Under the pieces are notes generated by a model. That model did not search any database. It was not told where the DNA came from and saw only the letters and a program-made list of their open reading frames with translations. DNA of 64,000 nt from NCBI RefSeq assembly GCF_910593725.1, contig NZ_OU343031.1:124001-188000 (forward strand). Direction: 5' to 3'. This DNA is from Candidatus Vallotiella hemipterorum (GTDB lineage Bacteria > Pseudomonadota > Gammaproteobacteria > Burkholderiales > Burkholderiaceae). How positions within the stretch are numbered: the stretch's first letter is position 1; each line of letters opens with the position of its first letter. A program made the position numbers and the translations under genes. Of the stretch, positions 21,946 through 51,335 are shown piece by piece.

Positions 21946-22416
21946 ATGTCTAGGCTATTTAAGATACCGGAGTCGGTGTTAGTAGTAATTCACACCGTTT
22001 CGCTTAACGTATTGATTATAAATCGTGCGGATTTCCCCTGTTTTTGGCAATCCGTAACAGGCTCAATTAATACTTATGACGAACCACTTCTACTAGCCGT
22101 AGAGCGAGAGGTCTTTGAGGAGACAGGTATTATAGTCAATACGGCACAGATACCGGTTAATGCGCTACTTAATTGGCAGCATTCTGTTAAATATAAGATC
22201 TACCCGCAATGGCGCCATCGCTATGCACCTGGTGTCAAGCTAAATATTGAGCACTGGTTTAGCCTCTGCGTGCCAGAAACTATTAATATCACTCTAGCGC
22301 CGCAAGAGCACATCTCATACATGTGGCTTCCTTATCGGGATGCAGCCAAACGTTGTTTTTCAGAATCGAATTGTAATGCTATCCTGCAGTTACCAAGGAG
22401 ACTCGCCTACAACTAA
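21946..22416 (+). CDS. nudB: Dihydroneopterin triphosphate diphosphatase NudB
   Basis: Nudix hydrolase that removes pyrophosphate from dihydroneopterin triphosphate in folate synthesis. The 156-residue protein starts with IPESVLVVIHT and carries the Nudix box around GSINTYDEPLLLAVEREVFE followed by ETG. WQHSVKYKIYPQWRHRYAPG, EHWFSL and APQEHISYMWLPYRDA are typical of the NudB branch next to aspS in betaproteobacteria. It sits 24 bases after aspS and is probably co-transcribed with it. Confidence 0.93.
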   Translation: MSRLFKIPESVLVVIHTVSLNVLIINRADFPCFWQSVTGSINTYDEPLLLAVEREVFEETGIIVNTAQIPVNALLNWQHSVKYKIYPQWRHRYAPGVKLNIEHWFSLCVPETINITLAPQEHISYMWLPYRDAAKRCFSESNCNAILQLPRRLAYN

Positions 22417-24117
22417 ATAGAACACTACAGTAGCTTTATAGTAGCTCATATGCTTCAGGATCTTTGATATACGATAGACAAACTCTGAGCAGGCTATCAT
22501 ATCTTTAGGACCTGGAATAACTGTGATTTTATAGATCTAGAAGTGTGTTTTAATACATCATTATAGGGTTTATAGAGAAGTATTGACACAATCAGCATAA
22601 GGCCTTGTTCGGGCTAGGTATTTTTTAAGCCTTGCATATATATACGCTTTTCCGAAAGACATGCGCATGCAGTAATCAATAAAAATTGATACATATATAA
22701 TTATGACTATACCATTACATAGTAAATCTATGTTTTGTAGTGCTACTTTAGAATTCATTCTAACTCACTATAAGCCGATGAGAATTAACTCCATTATTTT
22801 ATAGGGTATATAAAATTTTATATAACGAAATACTAGTTTAAGGCCCCCCTTTTTTATTCATTAAATATACCTGTTACTTTACACTGCTAAACTAATACTA
22901 GTTTGCTCAGCACTATGCTATTTATGAATATAAAATTATCTAGTGCTTAACCAAAATTTCTTAATTAGCCGCTAGATGCGGCGTAAGTTAATTTGCGCTG
23001 CAGGTCATGGTGAGCGAATATTTTTAATAATTAAATATAGAATAAATGTGTTTCGCTTGAGTGCGAGCTAGCATTTTATATATTAGTTATCAAGACGTAT
23101 AGGTATATTAATATTGTGCTACAAGCGTACTAATTCATAATATGATCGTAGTAATCTATACCGGGCGCGCCACCTTATTATCTAATCTCAAGCTTAATTA
23201 TAAGATAACAAATACCCAGGATGGGGTTACCTGCACACTATTTTGAGTACGCCTTAAAGCGTTTTGAGGCATTTAATTGGAGCTTTTGCTATTTAAAGTC
23301 ACCGCATACTAAGCTATATCTAATATTAGTAATACGTGTACAACAGATATTATCTTGTATTCCAACTAATAGATGAGATTCAAAAAAACCTACATAACTT
23401 AATGATGAGCTATTTTTCATAGTATTCTAGATAAAAATCTAGATTTTCTATCTTTTTTATCAAAAATATTTGAGATTCTTGATTAATTTAAAAATATTTG
23501 TCATTGCTTAATTACGGGCACAGTCTGTGCCATTACTTAGCACTTTAAATGCATGCGATAAATCTCAATACTAGCTGCTTACTAATTGTTAGCACAATAT
23601 AGTAAAATTATTTTTATAGTGTGTTATTACATAGATTGTATTGCCTACAATTATTTGTAATTATTTTCTTTTCGGTATAATAAAAAATTATTATGTAATA
23701 AACAAGTAAATCTATATTTTTATCTTAAGTGCCGTGTGGGAAAGACTAGAGATCTAAAATAGATACATTGATAATCGGACTTCTAGTTAATTTTATTCAG
23801 GGCATGCAGATATACGGATAAAAAACAGAGTCATCTCGCATGCCTGCGAGGGCTGGTAAAAGTCTATCCAAGCAGTAAATACTAGAGAATTACTTTGTAC
23901 GTATTGCCTAGATATGCATAGACACTGTAACAACTGGTATGCGGGATGCTAATAACTAGACTCCAGTTATTCTATGCTCGAATATATAATGTACTATATG
24001 TTATAGGTCTATCTGATAGAGGGGTATGTAGCTAATCTTGAGACAACTAAATTTTTAGATATCTACGTATAGCCTGACATAGGCATTATCAAATCTATAT
24101 GGAATCCAGTTAAATAT

Positions 24118-24144
24118 TACTGTCGCCCTTGTTAGGCGACAGTA
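24118..24144. repeat. Perfect 10-bp hairpin
   Basis: TACTGTCGCC and GGCGACAGTA flank a 7-base loop. It is unusually GC-rich for this spacer. No T-run follows. Confidence 0.65.
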
Positions 24145-24308
24145 GCCTTATTGTCTAGCATCTACTACTCTATGCGTCGTAGTACACGTATCTAGAAAAC
24201 ACATGAATTGATATTAATATTAATTCTAATCTCAGTTACTATCTATATTAGTACCTGAGCTGTATATCGGAGCTTGAGCTAGTATTGTTAATAAGCTGTC
24301 ATAGCTTG

Positions 24309-24342
24309 TTAACAGCAGCACTAGCGAAAGTGCCGCTGTTAA
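24309..24342. repeat. Interrupted hairpin
   Basis: TTAACAGC pairs with GCTGTTAA, and inside that CACT pairs with AGTG around AGCGAA, with a small internal bulge. No T-run follows. Confidence 0.55.
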
Positions 24343-24673
24343 TCTTTATCTAGACTAGGATTATGGTATTTAATCAAACCTATACTTTAAATAAGTAAAA
24401 ATTAAAAAATAATAATTATTATATCGTTCTTTTATACCTAGTAACTCTATTCTAACTACATCGTAGTGCGTCTGTGCCTTATACTGATGCATACGTTTAT
24501 AATCTTTTATTTTTTTAACACCTTCAGGCTTTTACGTTGTTGTTGTTTAATACTTCCTTCTTTGAGAAAATTTAAGATTATATCCTATATATTCCGATAG
24601 CGCCTTACTATAGCACAGAGCGCTGCCTAAGCGCTGAAATATAGCTAATCTAATTAAAATAGATATTATACTA

Positions 24674-24706
24674 TGCATAAAGCTGGCTTCTAGCCAGCTT
24701 TATGCA
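24674..24706. repeat. Perfect 15-bp hairpin with 3-base loop
   Basis: TGCATAAAGCTGGCT and AGCCAGCTTTATGCA flank TCT. There is no T-run and no flanking gene. Confidence 0.7.
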
Positions 24707-24991
24707 AGCAATAACAATATATTTACTTTGCTTCGGTTAAGTGCTTATCAAGATATTTTTGCTCTATTGCAACATTATATTATCCGGTATTAGCGTTAGG
24801 CATATTGTCCATATAGTAATAAATAAGATTTGCTCATTAATAAAGTAGATTAGTAGTACTCTTAGGGGCTTTGCCTAGTGTTACTATTTAGATGGTGCGT
24901 GCTATGGAACCGATCGCTGACATAAGTCGGCGGAGAAAGCTTTATGATACTTTAATACTTTTGCTAACTCTACGCGTTGCGTATAAATTAC

Positions 24992-25036
24992 CATATCACT
25001 GATAATCTAATCATCAGTTAGATTATCAGTGATATG
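24992..25036. repeat. Perfect 19-bp inverted repeat
   Basis: The arms at 24992-25010 and 25018-25036 are exact reverse complements over 19 bp, starting CATATCACTG, with a 7-base loop TCATCAG. It is the longest perfect stem I found in the window. No T-run or gene is adjacent. Confidence 0.75.
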
Positions 25037-26194
25037 TGCTACTAGCTTAGCGGTCGCCAATGAATATTGGTTATTTAAAGTCAAAATAATTCCCTCAACC
25101 GTGACAACGTAACTGTTTGTGCAAACGATATCAGGCCTATACTAGCGAGCTTAATCTGCGCCATAATCTAGTTGGCGGTTTGGATTTATTGTGTAATTCA
25201 GGGGAATATGCAATGCTATTAATTTAGTGTCGGGTATTAAATTAGGGAGGTGGTCGAAATCAGTTCGACGTATTCGTATGCTAGTTAAAGAATTTTTTTC
25301 TATGACCGCTTATATAAACCAATAAGTTCTGCGCGCTGTTTTTAAAAATGAATATTTATCAACTTTTCTTAAAATTGATTAAGCAAATAATACCTAAACT
25401 ACCTATTAGTATATATAAAATTATATATGCTTAGCATTTGCTTGTTTTCTGAGAATCAGAACACTAATCTAAGCTAAGTATGTTGATTTCGATGAATGTA
25501 TCATTGAACCTATTGTATTTATATACAACCACTCGATGTCATTAGACGTTCAGAACAATTATTTATACTAATAGTAGAGCGCTAGATTAAACTTCTGATG
25601 ATTTATGTGTTATTGCAACCATTAACATTACTGTGTAATAAGGCTGCATATGTTTAATAGCTTTACTATTATTACGGCATATCGTCTATTTATGTATAAG
25701 CCCCTGGCGGGGCAGCATAATGCTGCTGAATATTACAATCTATTTTGTTGTGCGCTATTCCGTGACTATAATTAAGAGTATCGTGGAAAGATTGTGTAGG
25801 GCCTGGTATAACGACTAATGATTGTTGTCTTATAAGAGTTGCCCGCAGCAAACATTAGCGAGCACAATTAAGTTTTCGTCTTGAGCGCGCCTTATGAACT
25901 TTTTTGAGCTAAACCTACGTAGTGTAAGGCGCTTTCACTAGTGGAGGAAGTTATGACTTGATGATAAGCTATCGCTATTATAGCCATCCTATATATTAAT
26001 AAAATACTTATACCGGGAATAAAGCATAATTAGCCGGTTACTATAACTGCGTATGTTTCATTCCTCTAAACATAAGGAACTTGATTAATTTTATTTAACT
26101 AAGTAAGCGTATAAAACCAATCTGGCCGAAAAGGTCAAGGCGACAACTATGACTAGGTTCACCGGCAAATTCCTACTAGATAATATAGCAATGG

Positions 26195-26233
26195 TTAAGC
26201 GGTTATCGATACTTTTTATCGATAACCGCTTAA
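26195..26233. repeat. Perfect 17-bp inverted repeat upstream of gdhA
   Basis: The arms at 26195-26211 and 26217-26233 (TTAAGCGGTTATCGATA and its complement) surround CTTTT. One inserted base separates further GG/CC pairing outside. It lies about 260 bases before the gdhA start, so a leader or attenuator role is possible, but there is no T-run. Confidence 0.7.
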
Positions 26234-26491
26234 ACCACTTCTATAAGATGCGATAGCTAACTAGTTCACGCTCTCGACAAAGATCTGGTTATATTGCAAT
26301 AAGCTAGTGCGTTGCATAGAGATTATAAGTGTGCAGCTAGCAGGAGAACGCGCTGTCTTATCGTATCTCTCGCTTGGAATAATATGGCACTATACATTTT
26401 TCCAAGAAAAACAGAGCATGATAATTTAGCGTTGGATTTAGTCTTGCCGCTTTTTACAATGACGGCCTTCTTGACTGAAGAGAACCTATTC

Positions 26492-27811
26492 ATGTCCGCG
26501 CAGCAAACTGTTTTGAACAATTCATCGATGCCTTCTAAGCACGCTTTGCCTTCCTACTTACATACTGATTCGTTGGGTCCATGGGGCTCTTATTTGCAGC
26601 AAATTGATCGTGTAGCGCCCCATCTGGGTTCGCTTTCTCGCTGGCTTGAGACGCTCAAGCGACCCAAGCGCATTCTAATCGTCGACGTGCCAATTGAAAT
26701 GGACAACGGCACTACAGCCCATTTTGAGGGATACCGAGTTCAGCACAATACATCACGCGGCCCCGGGAAGGGTGGTGTACGATATCACCAGGATGTCACA
26801 CTATCCGAAGTAATGGCGCTCTCCGCCTGGATGTCGATTAAAAATGCCGCAGTTAACGTACCATATGGTGGTGCGAAAGGTGGCATTCGAGTCGACCCAC
26901 GAAAGCTCTCACGAAATGAACTCGAGCGAGTTACGCGCCGGTATACAAGTGAAATTGGCATTATCATTGGGCCACATATCGATATTCCAGCAACTGACGT
27001 CAATACTGATGAGCAGGTGATGGCATGGATGATGGATACGTACTCAATGAATACTGGTCAAACGGCAACAGGCGTTGTAACAGGTAAACCAGTCTCGCTA
27101 GGCGGATCGCTGGGCCGGCGTGAAGCAACAGGGCGTGGGATATTTACTGTCGGTTGCGAGGCGGCACAGCGTATCGGATTAGACATCGCATCAGCTCGAG
27201 CTGCGGTTCAAGGATTTGGCAACGTCGGTGGGATTGCCGCACAGCTATTTGTCGAGGCAGGCGTTAAAGTAATTGCAGTTCAGGACCATACTGGAACGAT
27301 CTATAAACCATCCGGTATCGATGCGCATGCGTTGCTCGAGCATGTTTCTGCTCGAGGCGGCGTAACCGGATTCGCGGGTGCGGAGTCGCTCGTCAACGAT
27401 AATTTCTGGGATATTGAGAGCGATATACTAATTCCTGCTGCGCTTGAAAGTCAAATCAATGAGCAGAATGCATCTCGGATTCGCACAAAGATCATAATAG
27501 AGGGAGCAAATGGTCCAACAACGCCGATCGCCGATGATATCCTGCGCGAGAATAATATACTAGTAATCCCTGACGTAGTCGCTAATGCCGGAGGCGTAAC
27601 AGTCTCTTACTTTGAATGGGTCCAGGATTTCTCCAGTTTCTTTTGGACTGAGGACGAGATAAATCAGCGGCTAGAGCGCATAATGCGAGAAGCGTTTGCT
27701 AGTGTCTGGCAAGTAGCTCAGGAAAATAATGTGTCTATCCGAACCGCAGCCTATATCATCGCGTGTAAACGAATTCTGATGGCGCGTGAGATGCGTGGTT
27801 TGTATCCGTAA
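26492..27811 (+). CDS. gdhA: Glutamate dehydrogenase
   Basis: Interconverts 2-oxoglutarate plus ammonia and glutamate. The open frame extends up to 26312, but the first 60 codons do not resemble the family. The ATG at 26492 ([10 protein letters not shown]) follows an AAGAGAA ribosome site and gives a normal 439-residue protein. The catalytic region shows [21 protein letters not shown] with the catalytic Lys, and DIPATDVNT. The Rossmann motif is QGFGNVGG. The C-terminus [14 protein letters not shown] is typical of Burkholderia GdhA. Its former partners, the gltIJKL glutamate/aspartate transporter, are degraded downstream, so ammonia assimilation probably matters more than uptake. Confidence 0.96.
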
Positions 27812-28659
27812 TTAACTTTCTTAGTCCGTAGTAATCATTACTATGATTAAGATCAACTGTGTGGCAGTCAAGTAGATTGTACTCAAGATAAAATGAAGCG
27901 ACTTGCAGAATAATAAACGTAACAGCTTTTAGCTTAACGTTTTTAATTGTTCTATTTTACTAAAATAACGTAATTTTTTGAGAAGGAAATTATTAATAAA
28001 TTTGCACTCACCCTGATCGTTATAGCTAAGGCCGATTAGTTATAGGAGACAGGGATATTTAAAAAAGTAATTTAGATATAATTACATTAGCGTACTGCGG
28101 GACGCTTTTCTGCTCTCGCACTATACTAATAAGCATTAGATCCAAAATTATTTTCAGGAGTTATCTCATGCAACCTGATGAGTATTAATATATTGTAACT
28201 AAAACGGAAAAGATGCTTAGATTTAGCATCTTTTCCGTTTATTTTCGACATTTGCTTATTATCCGACTTTGCGCGTTTCTGCTATACTCATGGTAACTGG
28301 CAAGTTAATAAACCCGCCTAGGAGCTAAATTAGAATGGCAGAATGCTATTGCAGTGTCTTGTATACATAAGCGGTTTCAGCTAATCTTCGCATTCTGGTA
28401 GGTGTATTATAAACAAGTAGTGCGCCTAAGGTTATATTTTATAACTTAGCACTTTGCTCTAGAAAATTGCGCTATCGTTGAAAACGGTATATGCTTTAGG
28501 TAGTTAATGATGCATACACGTCTCTTCTTAGAATTATTTTATATCTTTAAAAATCTATAACAACCTCAGTTTATGCACTATGCAGTGGGGGGCTACTAGT
28601 AGTATCAGGCGTTTTATATTGCCGCAGACTTTCTTTGGGTTTTAAAGGCTCTAAAACGA
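27812..28659. other. Spacer in place of gltI-gltJ-gltK
   Basis: In Burkholderia gdhA is followed by gltI, gltJ, gltK and gltL. Only about 850 bases precede the gltL remnant, far less than the three genes need, and none is readable. A terminator-like hairpin is at 28202-28240. An AGGAG-preceded ATG at 28168 opens only a few codons. Confidence 0.5.
28202..28240 (+). terminator. Strong hairpin after gdhA, possible terminator
   Basis: AAACGGAAAAGATGCT and its exact complement form a 16-bp stem around a 7-base loop. The right arm ends in TTTTCCGTTTATTTTC, so the T-rich tail is interrupted. It lies about 390 bases after gdhA and could terminate the shortened gdhA transcript. Confidence 0.5.
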
Positions 28660-29407
28660 TTGGATTTGGCATTAACTATCGATTTTCTGGGTTTATTAGA
28701 GACTATAAAGTATTAAAAATAATTGATTGTGATGCGTGCGGATATACCTCACTTATTCTAGTGAAGTTTATTAAAATATTGCACAAACTCGGGTGTCATA
28801 GATTGAATCTATCAAATCAAGAAAAAACATGTTTATTTAAAAATATTAGAGAAAATTACACATTACTAAAACTAGTGTAGCATCACCAGCGCGTGGTAGA
28901 TACTAGCCAATGCGAGTAGTTTACTGCCCCTCTTAATCCTAACCTTATCAGCACTACAACACCGATGTTATAAAAAATCCTAGATGTGTTGTCTACAATT
29001 TATTTTGATTGTGCATCATGATACTTATGTTTTGATTATTTGAGGCGGGCTCTGCTTAGAGATTAGCTAAGTTATTATTAGGAATAGCACGAGGCAAAAG
29101 TAATACTTGTCTACATTGAGTGGAACACGAATACAACAGAACCTTTGTTACTAAGGTTTACCATTTTATTACACTCTGATCTAGAGATAATTAATGAAAT
29201 TCTTAATATAATGGGCAAGCTAGCGCATGAAGAGATAACAATGATGTGCGTCATGTATGAGTACGAAATAGGCTTTGCCAAAAAGGTTGCGAATCGAGTA
29301 ATTTTTATAGATCAAAGGATGATTATTAATGATAATTCTATTAAAAGCTTTTTGCACATCTAAAATTAGACCGCGCTAAAAATTTTTTAGCTAATATTTT
29401 AAATTAA
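28660..29407 (+). pseudogene. gltL: gltL pseudogene (glutamate/aspartate ABC ATPase)
   Basis: Pieces of the ATPase subunit are readable in order. NQEKTCLFKNIREN (about 28813-28855) matches the NDKKTDLAKLRSRV region. LSGTRIQQ (about 29118) is the LSGGQQQR signature. LEIINEILNIMGKLAHEEIT and FAKKVANRVIFID (29180-29310) follow. The end KLDRAKNFLANILN stops at the TAA ending at 29407. Walker A and Walker B are destroyed, and there are several stops and frameshifts. The transporter is non-functional. Confidence 0.87.
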
Positions 29408-32609: not shown

Positions 32610-33008
32610 AAAGTAGACTAGACAGCCGCGTCTTCCGAAAATTTCGAGAAGACGAGGAAAGTCCGGACTCCACAGGGCAGGGTGATGGCTAACAGCCATC
32701 CGTGGCAACACGCGGAACAGGGCAACAGAAAGTAAACCGCCAATGGCCCGTGTAAACTGGGATCAGGTAAGGGTGAAATGGTGCGGTAAAAGCGCACCGC
32801 GACTACGGTAACAAGTTCGGCAGTGCAACCTCCACCCGGAGCAATTCCAAGTAAGCAGGCGTGCGCTTGCATCAAGGCGCAAGAGTGGACCCACCCTAGC
32901 CTGCGGGTAGGAAGCTTGAGCGCGTCAGTAATGACGCACCTAGAGGAATGGCTGTCACGTGTAGCGGGTAACGTCGCACGCACAGAATCCGGCTTACCGG
33001 TCTGCTTT
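32610..33008 (+). ncRNA. rnpB: RNase P RNA (type A)
   Basis: The catalytic RNA of RNase P, which matures tRNA 5' ends. The 5' end AAAGTAGAC pairs with GTCTGCTTT at 33000-33008 to form P1 (one G-U). Conserved blocks are all present: GAGGAAAGTCCGGACTCC, CAGGGCAGGGTG, GGGCAACAGAAAGTAAACCG, GGGATCAGGTAAGGGTGAAA, GTGCGGTAAAAGCGCACCGC, CTCCACCCGGAGCAA, CTAGAGGAATGGCTGTC and ACAGAATCCGGCTTA. Size (399 nt) is normal. A weak TTCCTT/AAGGAA hairpin just after may help termination. The long minus-strand frame here is only its complement. Confidence 0.97.
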
Positions 33009-33940
33009 GTGTTTCCTTTTATAAGGAAGCCTACAATATACTCATATACCCATAAAGGTATATATTTCGCTTTCTTAGCAATATCATCGCCGAAAAGCAA
33101 TCTCCTATAATAGGGTATTAATAGCTCGCTTCATGCTTACTTCCTCAGTTTAGGATACTCAGACTTTATAGTCGATAGAAGCGATAAATTTTCTTTAGGG
33201 GAGTTGCATTATCATTTACTATTTACCCCGGTGCCCGGTATCTATCAACCTCCAGGCAGTTATTAGAACATGTTAAAGGAATCCTATTAAAAGTACTAAC
33301 ATCTAGTTATTGCCCGCATTAAAACAGCAGCTATTTATCTTTATCAAGTAGATTATAACGCCCCTATATGCTGTCGTATGTTCCTAAGCTTACTTTGAGT
33401 ATACTGAGTCAGCTGATTTGCTAACTTACTATAGCGATGTTAAGCAAGCTGCATATTAACCAAGATTTATACATAAATTCTAATTACCAGAAGCTAAGCT
33501 GGATAAATATAGTAGTAAAATTTTTACAGTAATTAAAATTCTTAGGAAGATTACTTATTTAAAGTACGCTTTTAGCTAGAAATCATAAAGCTATTATTAA
33601 TTAAGGGTTTAGTTTTATTTTTAATAAATAATATCTTTGATATGAGGGAGTAACGTAACGTAGTTTTCCTTGCGACTACTTAGTTTAAGCTCTATAATAC
33701 TCGATGTTAGTCGACTCGATAGCATCCTCTTTTTATATTTAGTACGTCAAATAAAACGTGGAAAAGATTCTACTATAATCATTTAGAGCAAGATTAGACT
33801 GAGCTAGTGCTAGTCTAGCATTTCTTCTATAAAAACTTTTTCGAAAAAATGCTCTCGGAAAAAATTTTTGAAAGCCTGCGCTGCGCTTAATACAAATTCA
33901 TCAGCAGGACTAAAAGCAAAGCATTTTATTGGGATCGATC
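33009..33940. other. AT-rich spacer before rplM
   Basis: No gene is recognised in about 930 bases. The last 150 bases probably contain the rplM promoter and leader, but I cannot define it firmly. Confidence 0.55.
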
Positions 33941-35272: not shown

Positions 35273-35798
35273 ATATTATTGACTACTTAAATAAGTCAAC
35301 TTGTTTATTTAATAATAATAAATGTGATCTACTAAAATCACAATATTTTGTTATAAACATATATTTTTTATGTAAAACCATAGTAGCAATATTTTATAAT
35401 TAGTATTATCTACTATATAAACTTGTGCTTGCAGTACTTTTATAAAAATACTATATAAATATCTATAATTTATTTGATATAAAGCTACGCTAGCTTAGCG
35501 TAGCTTTATAGTGCCTACTAATACATACTAAAAATTAGCGCACTCCTGTTATAAGCTTACCCAAGGTTCTACATAATTAGTCTATTTTGAGCAAAGTCAC
35601 CACCCTACACTCGTTAATATTTTCGCTAGACATTAGGTAATATGTGCCTATAACTTTTCAGGTCAGCCATCCCCTAAACTGGGGTTCTATTTATATAAAA
35701 ACTCCGTAGCATTGTGAACTATATATCTATTAGAAGAATAATGCTCGAGAACGATGCAGCCTATGACGCAGGCAGCATTGCTATCACTAACTATAATG
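35273..35798. other. Eroded spacer between erpA and the M23 gene
   Basis: Very AT-rich, especially 35280-35480. Burkholderia has a bactofilin gene and anmK about here; neither is readable. A 15-bp perfect hairpin is at 35478-35510. Confidence 0.55.
35478..35510. repeat. Perfect 15-bp hairpin
   Basis: TATAAAGCTACGCTA and its exact complement flank GCT. It lies between the convergent erpA and M23 genes. There is no T-run, yet the position would suit a bidirectional terminator. Confidence 0.65.
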
Positions 35799-43700: not shown

Positions 43701-44678
43701 CCTCGCAAACATTATCTTGACCGGTGGCACAAGGTCTAGTGTGTTAAAAACTAGACCTTGTAGCGACGACATCAGCGAAAAGTCGGCGGTGAAGGCGCGC
43801 ACTAGTAAGTCAGTCGCAGCGATAGTCCCGCGCCGGTCTAGCACGCGACTATCAAAAAAGCCTGTAGTGCAGACAGTCTGGTCCACACTGACAAGTTACG
43901 CTGCCTAACGCGGTGCATCGCGTAGGCCTAAGCTTAGCCCTTGTCTACCGACTGGATGCAGCGTTATGCTGAGTTGCCGATCGATGTAACAGGCTGATCC
44001 GTTAACGTGGTTAGTGCTTGGAATATAAGTGGGAGGCTGCACGCACACCAACCTTTTCGCATCCTATTTCATTGCCAAATGTACTCTACAACTCGTCTAG
44101 CTACTGAGCATCGGATGGCATCATCCGTTGCTCAGCTTGCGCTGGATTGCAACACTAGATAAGGCAAAGTTTGCCTGCCGTATACCGCCAAGAGGAAGTA
44201 GCGTAATGAAGCCTTCTTTCGTAAATCGCTCTCATGTAACCCAAGGTTGTGTAGCGTGATCACGCTAACCATAGCAACTATAGTTGCTTGATGATAGTTG
44301 CATCGGCTGTTCTGGAGGGGGCGCGCGTTAAACCGATTTATCTTTATGGTATTGACTCTCTTCTGCGTTAACGACTAGTCGCGTATGTGCAACGCGTTCT
44401 GTGCCGTATCACTATCAGAAGAATAGGGTAGCCACCAGCTGGGACGATTGGTAGCGCACGCCGAACTCTCCTCCAGCTTTAGCTACTGCCGTAGCTAGCA
44501 CATTTACTGGTATTCTGTAGCGCATTACATAGCAAAGCGCCGGAACATCTTGCTTAGTGCATTCGCTTCCCGATGGTAGATATTTTAACAGACAGTTAAA
44601 TACTTGAGCTGTTGGAAACGTTCGGAGCCAAAAATTGGAAACATCGGAGACAATAAAAGAGTAGACCGGTATCATCAA
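43686..44678 (-). pseudogene. UbiH/Coq6-family FAD hydroxylase pseudogene
   Basis: Two open minus-strand fragments look like one flavoprotein hydroxylase of ubiquinone synthesis. The first (44678-44415) contains QDVPALCYVMRYRIPVNVLA, like the DVPALGYVVRYGDL segment that follows the substrate region. The second (43886-43686) contains TDLLVRAFTADFSLMSSLQG and LDLVPPVKIMFAR, like the C-terminal DGLVRLFAPD...LRGLGLNALDRLPPLKR of the family. The middle is scrambled and the FAD-binding N-terminus is gone. In Burkholderia a gene of this family lies near dusB. The exact paralogue (UbiH, UbiF or UbiM) cannot be assigned. Confidence 0.62.
43729..43761. repeat. Perfect 12-bp inverted repeat inside a pseudogene
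   Basis: ACAAGGTCTAGT and ACTAGACCTTGT flank a 9-base loop. It lies in the decayed C-terminal coding part of the UbiH-family pseudogene (the SLQGL...LDLVPP segment), so it cannot be an ancestral terminator. Confidence 0.65.
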
Positions 44679-44694
44679 GCTTTGATGATACCGG
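44666..44694. repeat. Perfect 13-bp hairpin upstream of lptD
   Basis: CCGGTATCATCAA and its exact complement flank GCT; on the plus strand CAATTTTATC follows. It overlaps the 5' end of the readable UbiH-family fragment and lies about 175 bases before lptD. It could be a weak terminator or a generated palindrome. Confidence 0.6.
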
Positions 44695-50491: not shown

Positions 50492-51335
50492 TGCGGTACA
50501 TTCCTACACTTAAGGATTCCGACAACATGCTAGATTGGTGACCCGCCTGTCTAAAAACACTTCCGTACACGTATAAATACACACAACTTGCAAAGCAACG
50601 TAGTTGGGTTATAATCCAGCCCACATTAACCGCAATATTTATATTAGTTAATAACTCTGGGCAGCAGATCCCTCTAATTAAAACCCATCTTCCAGTACAC
50701 TAGCTACGCTTTTAACAAGTAGCCTTGTTCTATCAGACTTTAAGATAAAACCTAAAAGTTTTTAGATTCTCTTCAGAGTCAGAACTTTTCTGTAGCCCAC
50801 TATACTTGAAGAAAATATAGTGGGCTAGTTAATTAGCAAATCTATATTTGCAGATTTCCTAGAGTTTTACTACTATATAATAGTATTATCTACATAATAG
50901 TGCCTACTCTACTTCCGTGTATTTAAATACTTACATATAAATTTTATAGAGGCTTTATGCATGACTCGTTAACACGTACATTTATTTATACGTGACGATA
51001 TTAAGCATTAATTAACAGCTCGAATTAAATCGAGCCTCCACCAGTTACCGGCCTTTTTCTTATTACTAAACATGGCCTTAATGAACTTGATAGCTATGTA
51101 CGGGTCTGGAGGGATTTTCTTTATGTCTAACTCTGTATAGAAAATATTTCGTAGAGCCCGGATAAATATTCGGGAATATTGCAAGCTTAATAACGTATTA
51201 CTACCGTCAAACAGTGGGTTAGTTGCAATAAGCCGCATGAGTGCTTAGGTGGGGTTGTAAAATTTTCCCAAAAAGCAGAGTCTACTAAGGCCGCTTTAAA
51301 AAAATAGACTGTTGTCATACATCAAGCATATTCTA
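50492..51335. other. Spacer between rsmA and plsC
   Basis: Burkholderia has gloA and a YgjP-type metallopeptidase gene about here. A 76-codon open stretch on the minus strand (51008-51238) begins MRLIATN and contains IFYTELDIKK, faintly like the GloA N-terminus, but the match is too weak to name it. A 12-bp hairpin is at 50793-50827. Confidence 0.4.
50793..50827. repeat. Perfect 12-bp hairpin
   Basis: TAGCCCACTATA and TATAGTGGGCTA flank an 11-base loop, 300 bases after rsmA. No T-run follows. Confidence 0.6.

Follow-up and report, generated by a model that had tools for sequence, protein, structure and literature searches.

Long perfect palindromes were found to be spread over the genomes of four Vallotia species, and they were probably left behind by template-switch mutation ('quasipalindrome correction') acting on short inverted repeats in unselected DNA. 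This explanation is supported by the excess of such stems over chance, their genome-wide spread, the missing link to gene ends, their short loops, the spectrum of mismatches within them and the imperfect counterparts in related genomes. The simplest view is that of an ordinary template-switch process in unselected DNA. The sequence studied (referred to as the window) is a stretch of 64,000 nucleotides comprising bases 124001-188000 of contig 1 from a genome of 1,196,295 bases, which is represented by two contigs (1,123,864 and 72,431 bases). Vallotia is an adelgid symbiont with a coding density of 64.9%, according to the accessible text of PMC8692619.

The first-pass annotation had described mismatch-free stems of 10, 15, 19 and 17 bp within 2.1 kb of the span 22417-26491, and had counted, for the window, at least five perfect stems with a length of 14 bp or more. 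All four stems were present at their sites, and five of the longer class were counted, two of them at 28202-28240 and 35478-35510 (Table 1). Such numbers had been judged to be far above chance, and this holds: the three stems of at least 14 bp in the span never appeared in 300 dinucleotide shuffles, four stems of at least 10 bp were observed compared to a shuffle mean of 0.36 (maximum 2), and the five window stems of at least 14 bp stood against none in 60 shuffles. Similar counts in shuffled sequence, named beforehand as the outcome speaking against the observation, were hence not obtained, the shuffles being devoid of stems of at least 14 bp. The span had also been described as lacking a recognisable gene, and no ORF of at least 80 aa was detected within 22416-26312; the sequence is dead. 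The ORF preceding the spacer (21946-22416) presumably encodes a Nudix protein, and the one following it (26312-27811) is taken by us to be the glutamate dehydrogenase gene. In the relative G007, the same two genes are separated by approximately 16-17 kb containing other ORFs, compared to 4.4 kb in the genome studied here; the second flanking gene was located in G007 via an ORF antisense to it. A remnant at window positions 29178-29404, presumably of an ABC transporter ATPase gene, matches the gene that comes after the same neighbour in Mycetohabitans, and the stretch represents a decayed operon. Bacterial RNase P RNA of class A was located at window positions 32610-33012.

Table 1. Perfect inverted repeats and associated features in the window (window coordinates), and the fumarase palindrome (locus coordinates).
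Feature	Position	Strand	Remarks
Dead spacer	22417..26311	.	Between ORF 21946-22416 and ORF 26312-27811; without ORF of at least 80 aa
Perfect inverted repeat, 10-bp stem, loop 7	24118..24144	.	Matches loose terminator pattern on + strand
Perfect inverted repeat, 15-bp stem, loop 3	24674..24706	.	Without anchored ortholog
Perfect inverted repeat, 19-bp stem, loop 7	24992..25036	.	Matches loose terminator pattern on - strand; without anchored ortholog
Perfect inverted repeat, 17-bp stem, loop 5	26195..26233	.	Stretch containing inner stem exceeds its counterparts in G002 and G004 by 17 nt
Perfect inverted repeat, 16-bp stem, loop 7	28202..28240	.	Within decayed DNA following ORF 26312-27811
Perfect inverted repeat, 15-bp stem, loop 3	35478..35510	.	
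Perfect inverted repeat, 12-bp stem, loop 9	43729..43761	.	
Perfect inverted repeat, 13-bp stem, loop 3	44666..44694	.	
Perfect inverted repeat, 12-bp stem, loop 11	50793..50827	.	
48-base near-perfect to perfect palindrome in fumarase	L230:1835-1882 (own genome, within C1:788406-789097); also L228, L229, L233		

To evaluate the prevalence of such stems, 464 kb of the 1.196 Mb of the own genome (G000), 400 kb from each of G002, G004, G005 and G007, 200 kb each from G016 and G018, and 100 kb each from G024, G155, G142 and G020 (24 kb of the latter being N) were sampled. The congeneric relatives fall into genomes of 1.1-1.2 Mb (G002, G004, and G005) and of 3.3-3.8 Mb (G001, G003, G006, and G007); G002 is presumably a Vallotia, and the four larger genomes presumably represent Mycetohabitans. 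In the following, the four Vallotia are G000, G002, G004 and G005, for which pooled figures are sums over the per-genome rows. In the own genome, 41 perfect stems of at least 14 bp were detected, compared to a mean of 0.1 and a maximum of 1 in ten shuffles. Per 400 kb, G002, G004 and G005 contained 20, 37 and 28 such stems (chance 0.0-0.3), and G007 contained five (chance 0.3). The longest stem of this class in the four Vallotia measured 33 bp. The original notion of a cluster specific to the spacer could therefore not be maintained, since the palindromes occur genome-wide in four Vallotia species; the span is a rich spot of this genome-wide feature and not a separate one. Its three stems of at least 15 bp compare to approximately 0.6 expected from the non-ORF density of the own genome (27 such stems in 188 kb), corresponding to a chance of about 0.02 by arithmetic, a value that is post hoc, as the span was chosen because of its stems.

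Regarding location, which was assessed with mechanically called ORFs of at least 100 aa and not with annotated genes, 124 stems of at least 13 bp were found in 666 kb of non-ORF DNA of the four Vallotia, and 33 in 998 kb of ORFs, stems thus being five to six times rarer per base in ORFs. Elsewhere, ORFs contained six such stems per 788 kb (G007, G155, G018, G142, and G024 taken together), four per 162 kb (G016) and two per 64 kb (G020). The higher ORF count in Vallotia may reflect a higher rate, weaker selection, or both. Outside ORFs, the Vallotia density of 11-23 stems of at least 13 bp per 100 kb exceeds that of G007 and G024 (8-9), but not that of G155, G018, G142, G016 and G020 (25-86 per 100 kb, values obtained from small samples).

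Loops were mostly short. Among stems of at least 14 bp in the own genome, 34 featured loops of 0-10 nt and seven loops of 11-20 nt; none had 21-30 nt, one had 31-60 nt, none 61-100 nt, and one 101-200 nt. A loop of 0 was recorded for 20 of the 126 stems of this length in the four Vallotia, an arrangement that, together with the 33 hairpins of at least 13 bp inside ORFs, hardly fits transcription terminators, whether old or working and belonging to lost or present genes. Such an origin of the stems is very unlikely. Two of the four span stems matched a loose terminator pattern, such patterns were somewhat over-represented in 22417-28400 (9 compared to 3.5, sd 1.8), and in G004 a T-run followed 6 of the 37 stems of at least 14 bp (chance 7%). 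However, four T residues after the stem were present in only 2 of 41 cases in the own genome, 2 of 20 in G002 and 3 of 28 in G005, at the same chance level. The position of the hairpins is likewise informative, as an ORF 3' end was found no more than 100 bp away for 13 of the 124 non-ORF hairpins of at least 13 bp in Vallotia, a share matching the 10-12% of non-ORF bases that are situated in this zone. In seven other genomes, 22 of 41 non-ORF hairpins were located in this zone (G018 5/5, G142 3/4, G155 3/4, G007 2/5, G016 4/12, G024 1/1, and G020 4/10), which makes up 24-40% of the non-ORF bases in five of the seven. The earlier statement that the palindromes are mostly not ordinary terminators thus applies to them as a class.

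Individual hairpins do resemble terminators. The same T-tailed hairpin occurs in G000 and G002 (L109:15284-15315 and L124:16664-16699) and is likely a true conserved terminator. At L113:13092-13167, two overlapping long, terminator-like hairpins follow a sequence that we take to be the 3' end of 5S rRNA, and a single 21-bp perfect stem is found there in G002; the arrangement resembles an rRNA terminator that was lengthened by additional hairpin formation.

As REP/REPIN or MITE elements typically take the form of dispersed stem-loops, the stems might be regarded as copies of a mobile palindromic element. This deserves next to no credence in view of their sequences, which had been described as unrelated and mostly are: only one pair among the 56 hairpins of at least 13 bp in the own genome has a 12-mer in common, and the arm 13-mer recurs elsewhere in the 464 kb for 4 of the 56. 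Inverted chimeras are a known amplification error, so that an assembly or amplification artefact also comes into question. It is highly improbable, since the stems are present in the assemblies of four species, are short with short loops, show varied degrees of decay and, in the case of the fumarase gene addressed below, leave an open frame in all four Vallotia.

The mismatch spectrum of the stems pointed to their mode of origin. Pooled over the four Vallotia and compared to one shuffle per genome, arms of 18 bp with 0, 1, 2 and 3 mismatches numbered 41, 25, 31 and 77 (shuffle 0, 0, 0, and 14), and arms of 20 bp numbered 29, 12, 14 and 32 (shuffle 0, 0, 1, and 3). For 0, 1 and 2 mismatches, the corresponding values were 73, 34 and 77 for 16-bp arms (shuffle 0, 1, and 17), and 126, 107 and 270 for 14-bp arms (shuffle 0, 17, and 163). 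In G007, 18-bp arms with 0 to 3 mismatches numbered 0, 1, 4 and 18 (shuffle 0, 0, 2, and 9). By arithmetic, chance or stepwise substitution predicts approximately 48 one-mismatch stems for each perfect 18-bp stem with matching ends, and birth in a perfect state followed by neutral decay predicts nearly equal classes with 0, 1 and 2 mismatches. Stems with one or two mismatches were no commoner than perfect ones, as expected of stems that are born perfect and then decay, and the surplus in the perfect class fits some re-perfecting.

Anchored orthologs in another genome were obtained for 61 of the 205 hairpins of at least 12 bp in the four samples (21 of these in G007); the remaining 144 without an anchored ortholog include the 15- and 19-bp stems of the span. 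Inspection of the ortholog alignments for 39 of the 61 revealed cases with an imperfect version at the same place in relatives. For the 23-bp stem at L151:18106 of G004, many changes and a 5-nt gap were found in one arm, the relatives featuring an imperfect repeat, and further clear cases are the 17-bp stems at L122:17600 of G002 (loop 0) and L167:8552 of G005. Hairpin 26195 of the window, aligned to G002 and G004, has partly retained its outer sequence, the inner stem lying in a stretch that exceeds its counterpart in either relative by 17 nt. Imperfect versions were also seen for the fumarase stem in 13 of 13 non-Vallotia genomes.

Across 95 hairpin-relative comparisons, every aligned pair was retained in only two, and at least 80% in 15 more, indicating that most stems are private to one species and some are partly shared. 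These figures also bear on the idea that the stems are kept by selection as small RNAs, mRNA structures or nucleoid sites. The 17 comparisons with at least 80% of the aligned pairs retained, a stem at L112:16548 that is nearly unchanged between species, and the fumarase stem, held across species with paired changes, would fit it. On the other hand, full retention was confined to the two comparisons mentioned, the classes with one or two mismatches are similar in size to the perfect class instead of being much smaller, no Rfam family reached the gathering score in the span 22417-26491, and the stems are mostly unrelated; selection is thus a most unlikely general cause. The L112:16548-16608 stretch, which we take to be part of ispA, contains a 21-bp perfect stem with a loop of 19 that is nearly complete in G002, too.

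It had been proposed to determine whether both arms change together in orthologous spacers. Such coordinated change was strong in a single case, the fumarase gene, and moderate overall, where it was partly confounded: standard-pair double changes in stems amounted to 94, compared to 47 expected from flank pairs, but non-pairing double changes were raised as well (67 compared to about 43), so that part of the excess reflects higher divergence of the stems. The standard share of double changes was 0.584 compared to 0.525. In this calculation and in the set of 95 comparisons above, comparisons to G007 and hairpins anchored in two pieces only were left out, and the corrected estimate allows for transition bias and counts the fumarase site once (duplicate hairpin 193 dropped). 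For 32 hairpins whose site is spanned by two or more relatives, focal-private changes in the arms were only slightly raised (74 compared to 61.7 expected) and remained within the range of 2000 simulations, and clusters of differences between species, taken regardless of hairpins, exhibited no clear inverted-repeat excess (116, 73, and 109 clusters). That several bases are altered per event is suggested by the mismatch spectrum and single alignments, the cluster and private-change tests showing little or nothing at this divergence.

The fumarase gene piece matches the C-terminus family PF05683, and a stretch of 48 bases in it can form 24 pairs. Of these, 24, 23, 22 and 24 are formed in G000, G002, G004 and G005, respectively, compared to 16-18 in the four Mycetohabitans-like genomes and 14-18 in nine other genomes of the family. 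All four Vallotia thus reach 22-24 pairs, and all 13 non-Vallotia genomes 14-18; in G024, the tenth other family genome searched, no match to the stretch was found. The outer half of the left arm in G005 equals the reverse complement of the Mycetohabitans-like right arm, whereas in G000, G002 and G004 it is the right arm whose outer part follows the left arm. The outermost changes are not polarisable, several outer relatives already featuring the G005 bases. At seven pair positions, two standard pair types exist within Vallotia. The open frame is retained across the stem in all four Vallotia, and among 16 sequences in frame, an amino-acid change from TTATR or TTSTR to TTSSR occurs in Vallotia only.

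In the proposed template-switch process, the growing 3' end would quit its template at an imperfect inverted repeat during replication and pair with a nearby complementary stretch, either on its own folded-back strand or on the sister strand. A short piece of that stretch would be copied before the return to the template, and a single event could thereby convert one arm into the reverse complement of its partner or add a new piece of arm, resulting in a perfect stem. The stems would be neutral and would persist as the DNA is dead. For the polymerase step itself and the choice of the copied strand, we infer this course from the sequences.

Candidate causes were sought among repair genes. Neither SbcD nor the ExoI domain PF08411 was found in any of the eight genus genomes (the control for the latter being positive in E. 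coli only), and xseA and recJ are present in all eight. The mutS gene is whole in the four Mycetohabitans-like genomes, and only short matches with stops were detected in the four Vallotia (G000:C1:775199-775396, and likewise in G002, G004, and G005). In the accessible text of PMC8692619, mutL, recG and recQ are given among the Vallotia pseudogenes. It is conceivable, and put forward here only tentatively, that the template-switch rate of Vallotia was raised when mutS (and, according to the same source, mutL, recG, and recQ) decayed in a lineage already without SbcCD and ExoI; perfect hairpins might then mark dead DNA and indicate its age, and even working genes such as that for fumarase might be rewritten by repeated adjustment of one arm to its partner. 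Loss of mutS alone is not supported as the cause, as G016 with a whole mutS has a similar hairpin density (12 stems of at least 13 bp in 38 kb of non-ORF DNA and four in 162 kb of ORFs) and G018, in which no mutS was found, has no stems in 183 kb of ORFs. Loss of SbcCD does not account for the difference between genomes, SbcD not being found in any of the 11 family genomes searched, large ones included. Rho loss was dismissed as well, rho being present in 12 of 12 genomes.

Quasipalindrome-associated template-switch mutation was reportedly described by Ripley in 1982 and van Noort in 2003. For E. coli, such mutation is documented in PMC7202029 and PMC6357072, and as far as their accessible text goes, an imperfect repeat there likewise becomes perfect, or more so, with one arm serving as the template for changes or for a small deletion; the Vallotia record, in contrast, comes from existing genome sequence across long stretches of dead DNA and not from a reporter. 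The following comparisons also refer to the accessible parts of the sources. Template switching that makes or maintains RNA hairpins (PMC8794818) shares perfect stems arising in one event, later mismatches and paired arm changes with our data, but concerns rRNA and microRNA genes, whereas the Vallotia stems reside mostly in dead bacterial DNA. In yeast protein genes (PMC8604942), repeat arms were also made alike within coding sequence, with amino-acid changes; strains were compared there, and species here, with one gene followed closely. Perfect inverted repeats in protein genes are shared with the mitochondrial palindromes of Nematomorpha, for whose formation and joint evolution template switching was proposed (PMC6649704); these reach up to 284 bp and lie in genes, whereas those of Vallotia do not exceed 33 bp in the sampled DNA and lie mostly outside ORFs. 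An excess of inverted repeats in bacterial genomes was reported by Ladoukakis and Eyre-Walker (2008), as cited in PMC4060949, and surveys name template switching as one cause of their over-representation and count endosymbionts among the rich genomes (PMC4060949, PMC10434271). These surveys consider repeats from 6-10 bp up, whereas a decay series of long perfect stems together with precursors in relatives is available for Vallotia. Template switching making perfect stems, the bacterial excess of inverted repeats and coding palindromes are accordingly already known. Among the matches listed in the open literature, no earlier report of such hairpins in an insect symbiont was recognisable by title or start of abstract, and neither 'palindrom' nor 'inverted repeat' is present in the main texts of PMC8692619 and PMC8857208.

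Template switching has mostly been studied with reporters or in selected genes. A half-dead bacterial genome with its sister species documents the process almost free of selection, from the lengths of stems and sizes of loops to the birth and decay of hairpins, and palindromes pile up across the decaying symbiont genome where selection against them is slight. It also implies a warning, as the two arms of a stem can acquire paired changes by mutation alone, a pattern that is often accepted as proving RNA function. Assuming a steady state, the perfect non-ORF stems of at least 13 bp (124 in 666 kb), each with approximately 32 bases needing to stay unchanged, would correspond to about one new stem per 170 neutral substitutions.
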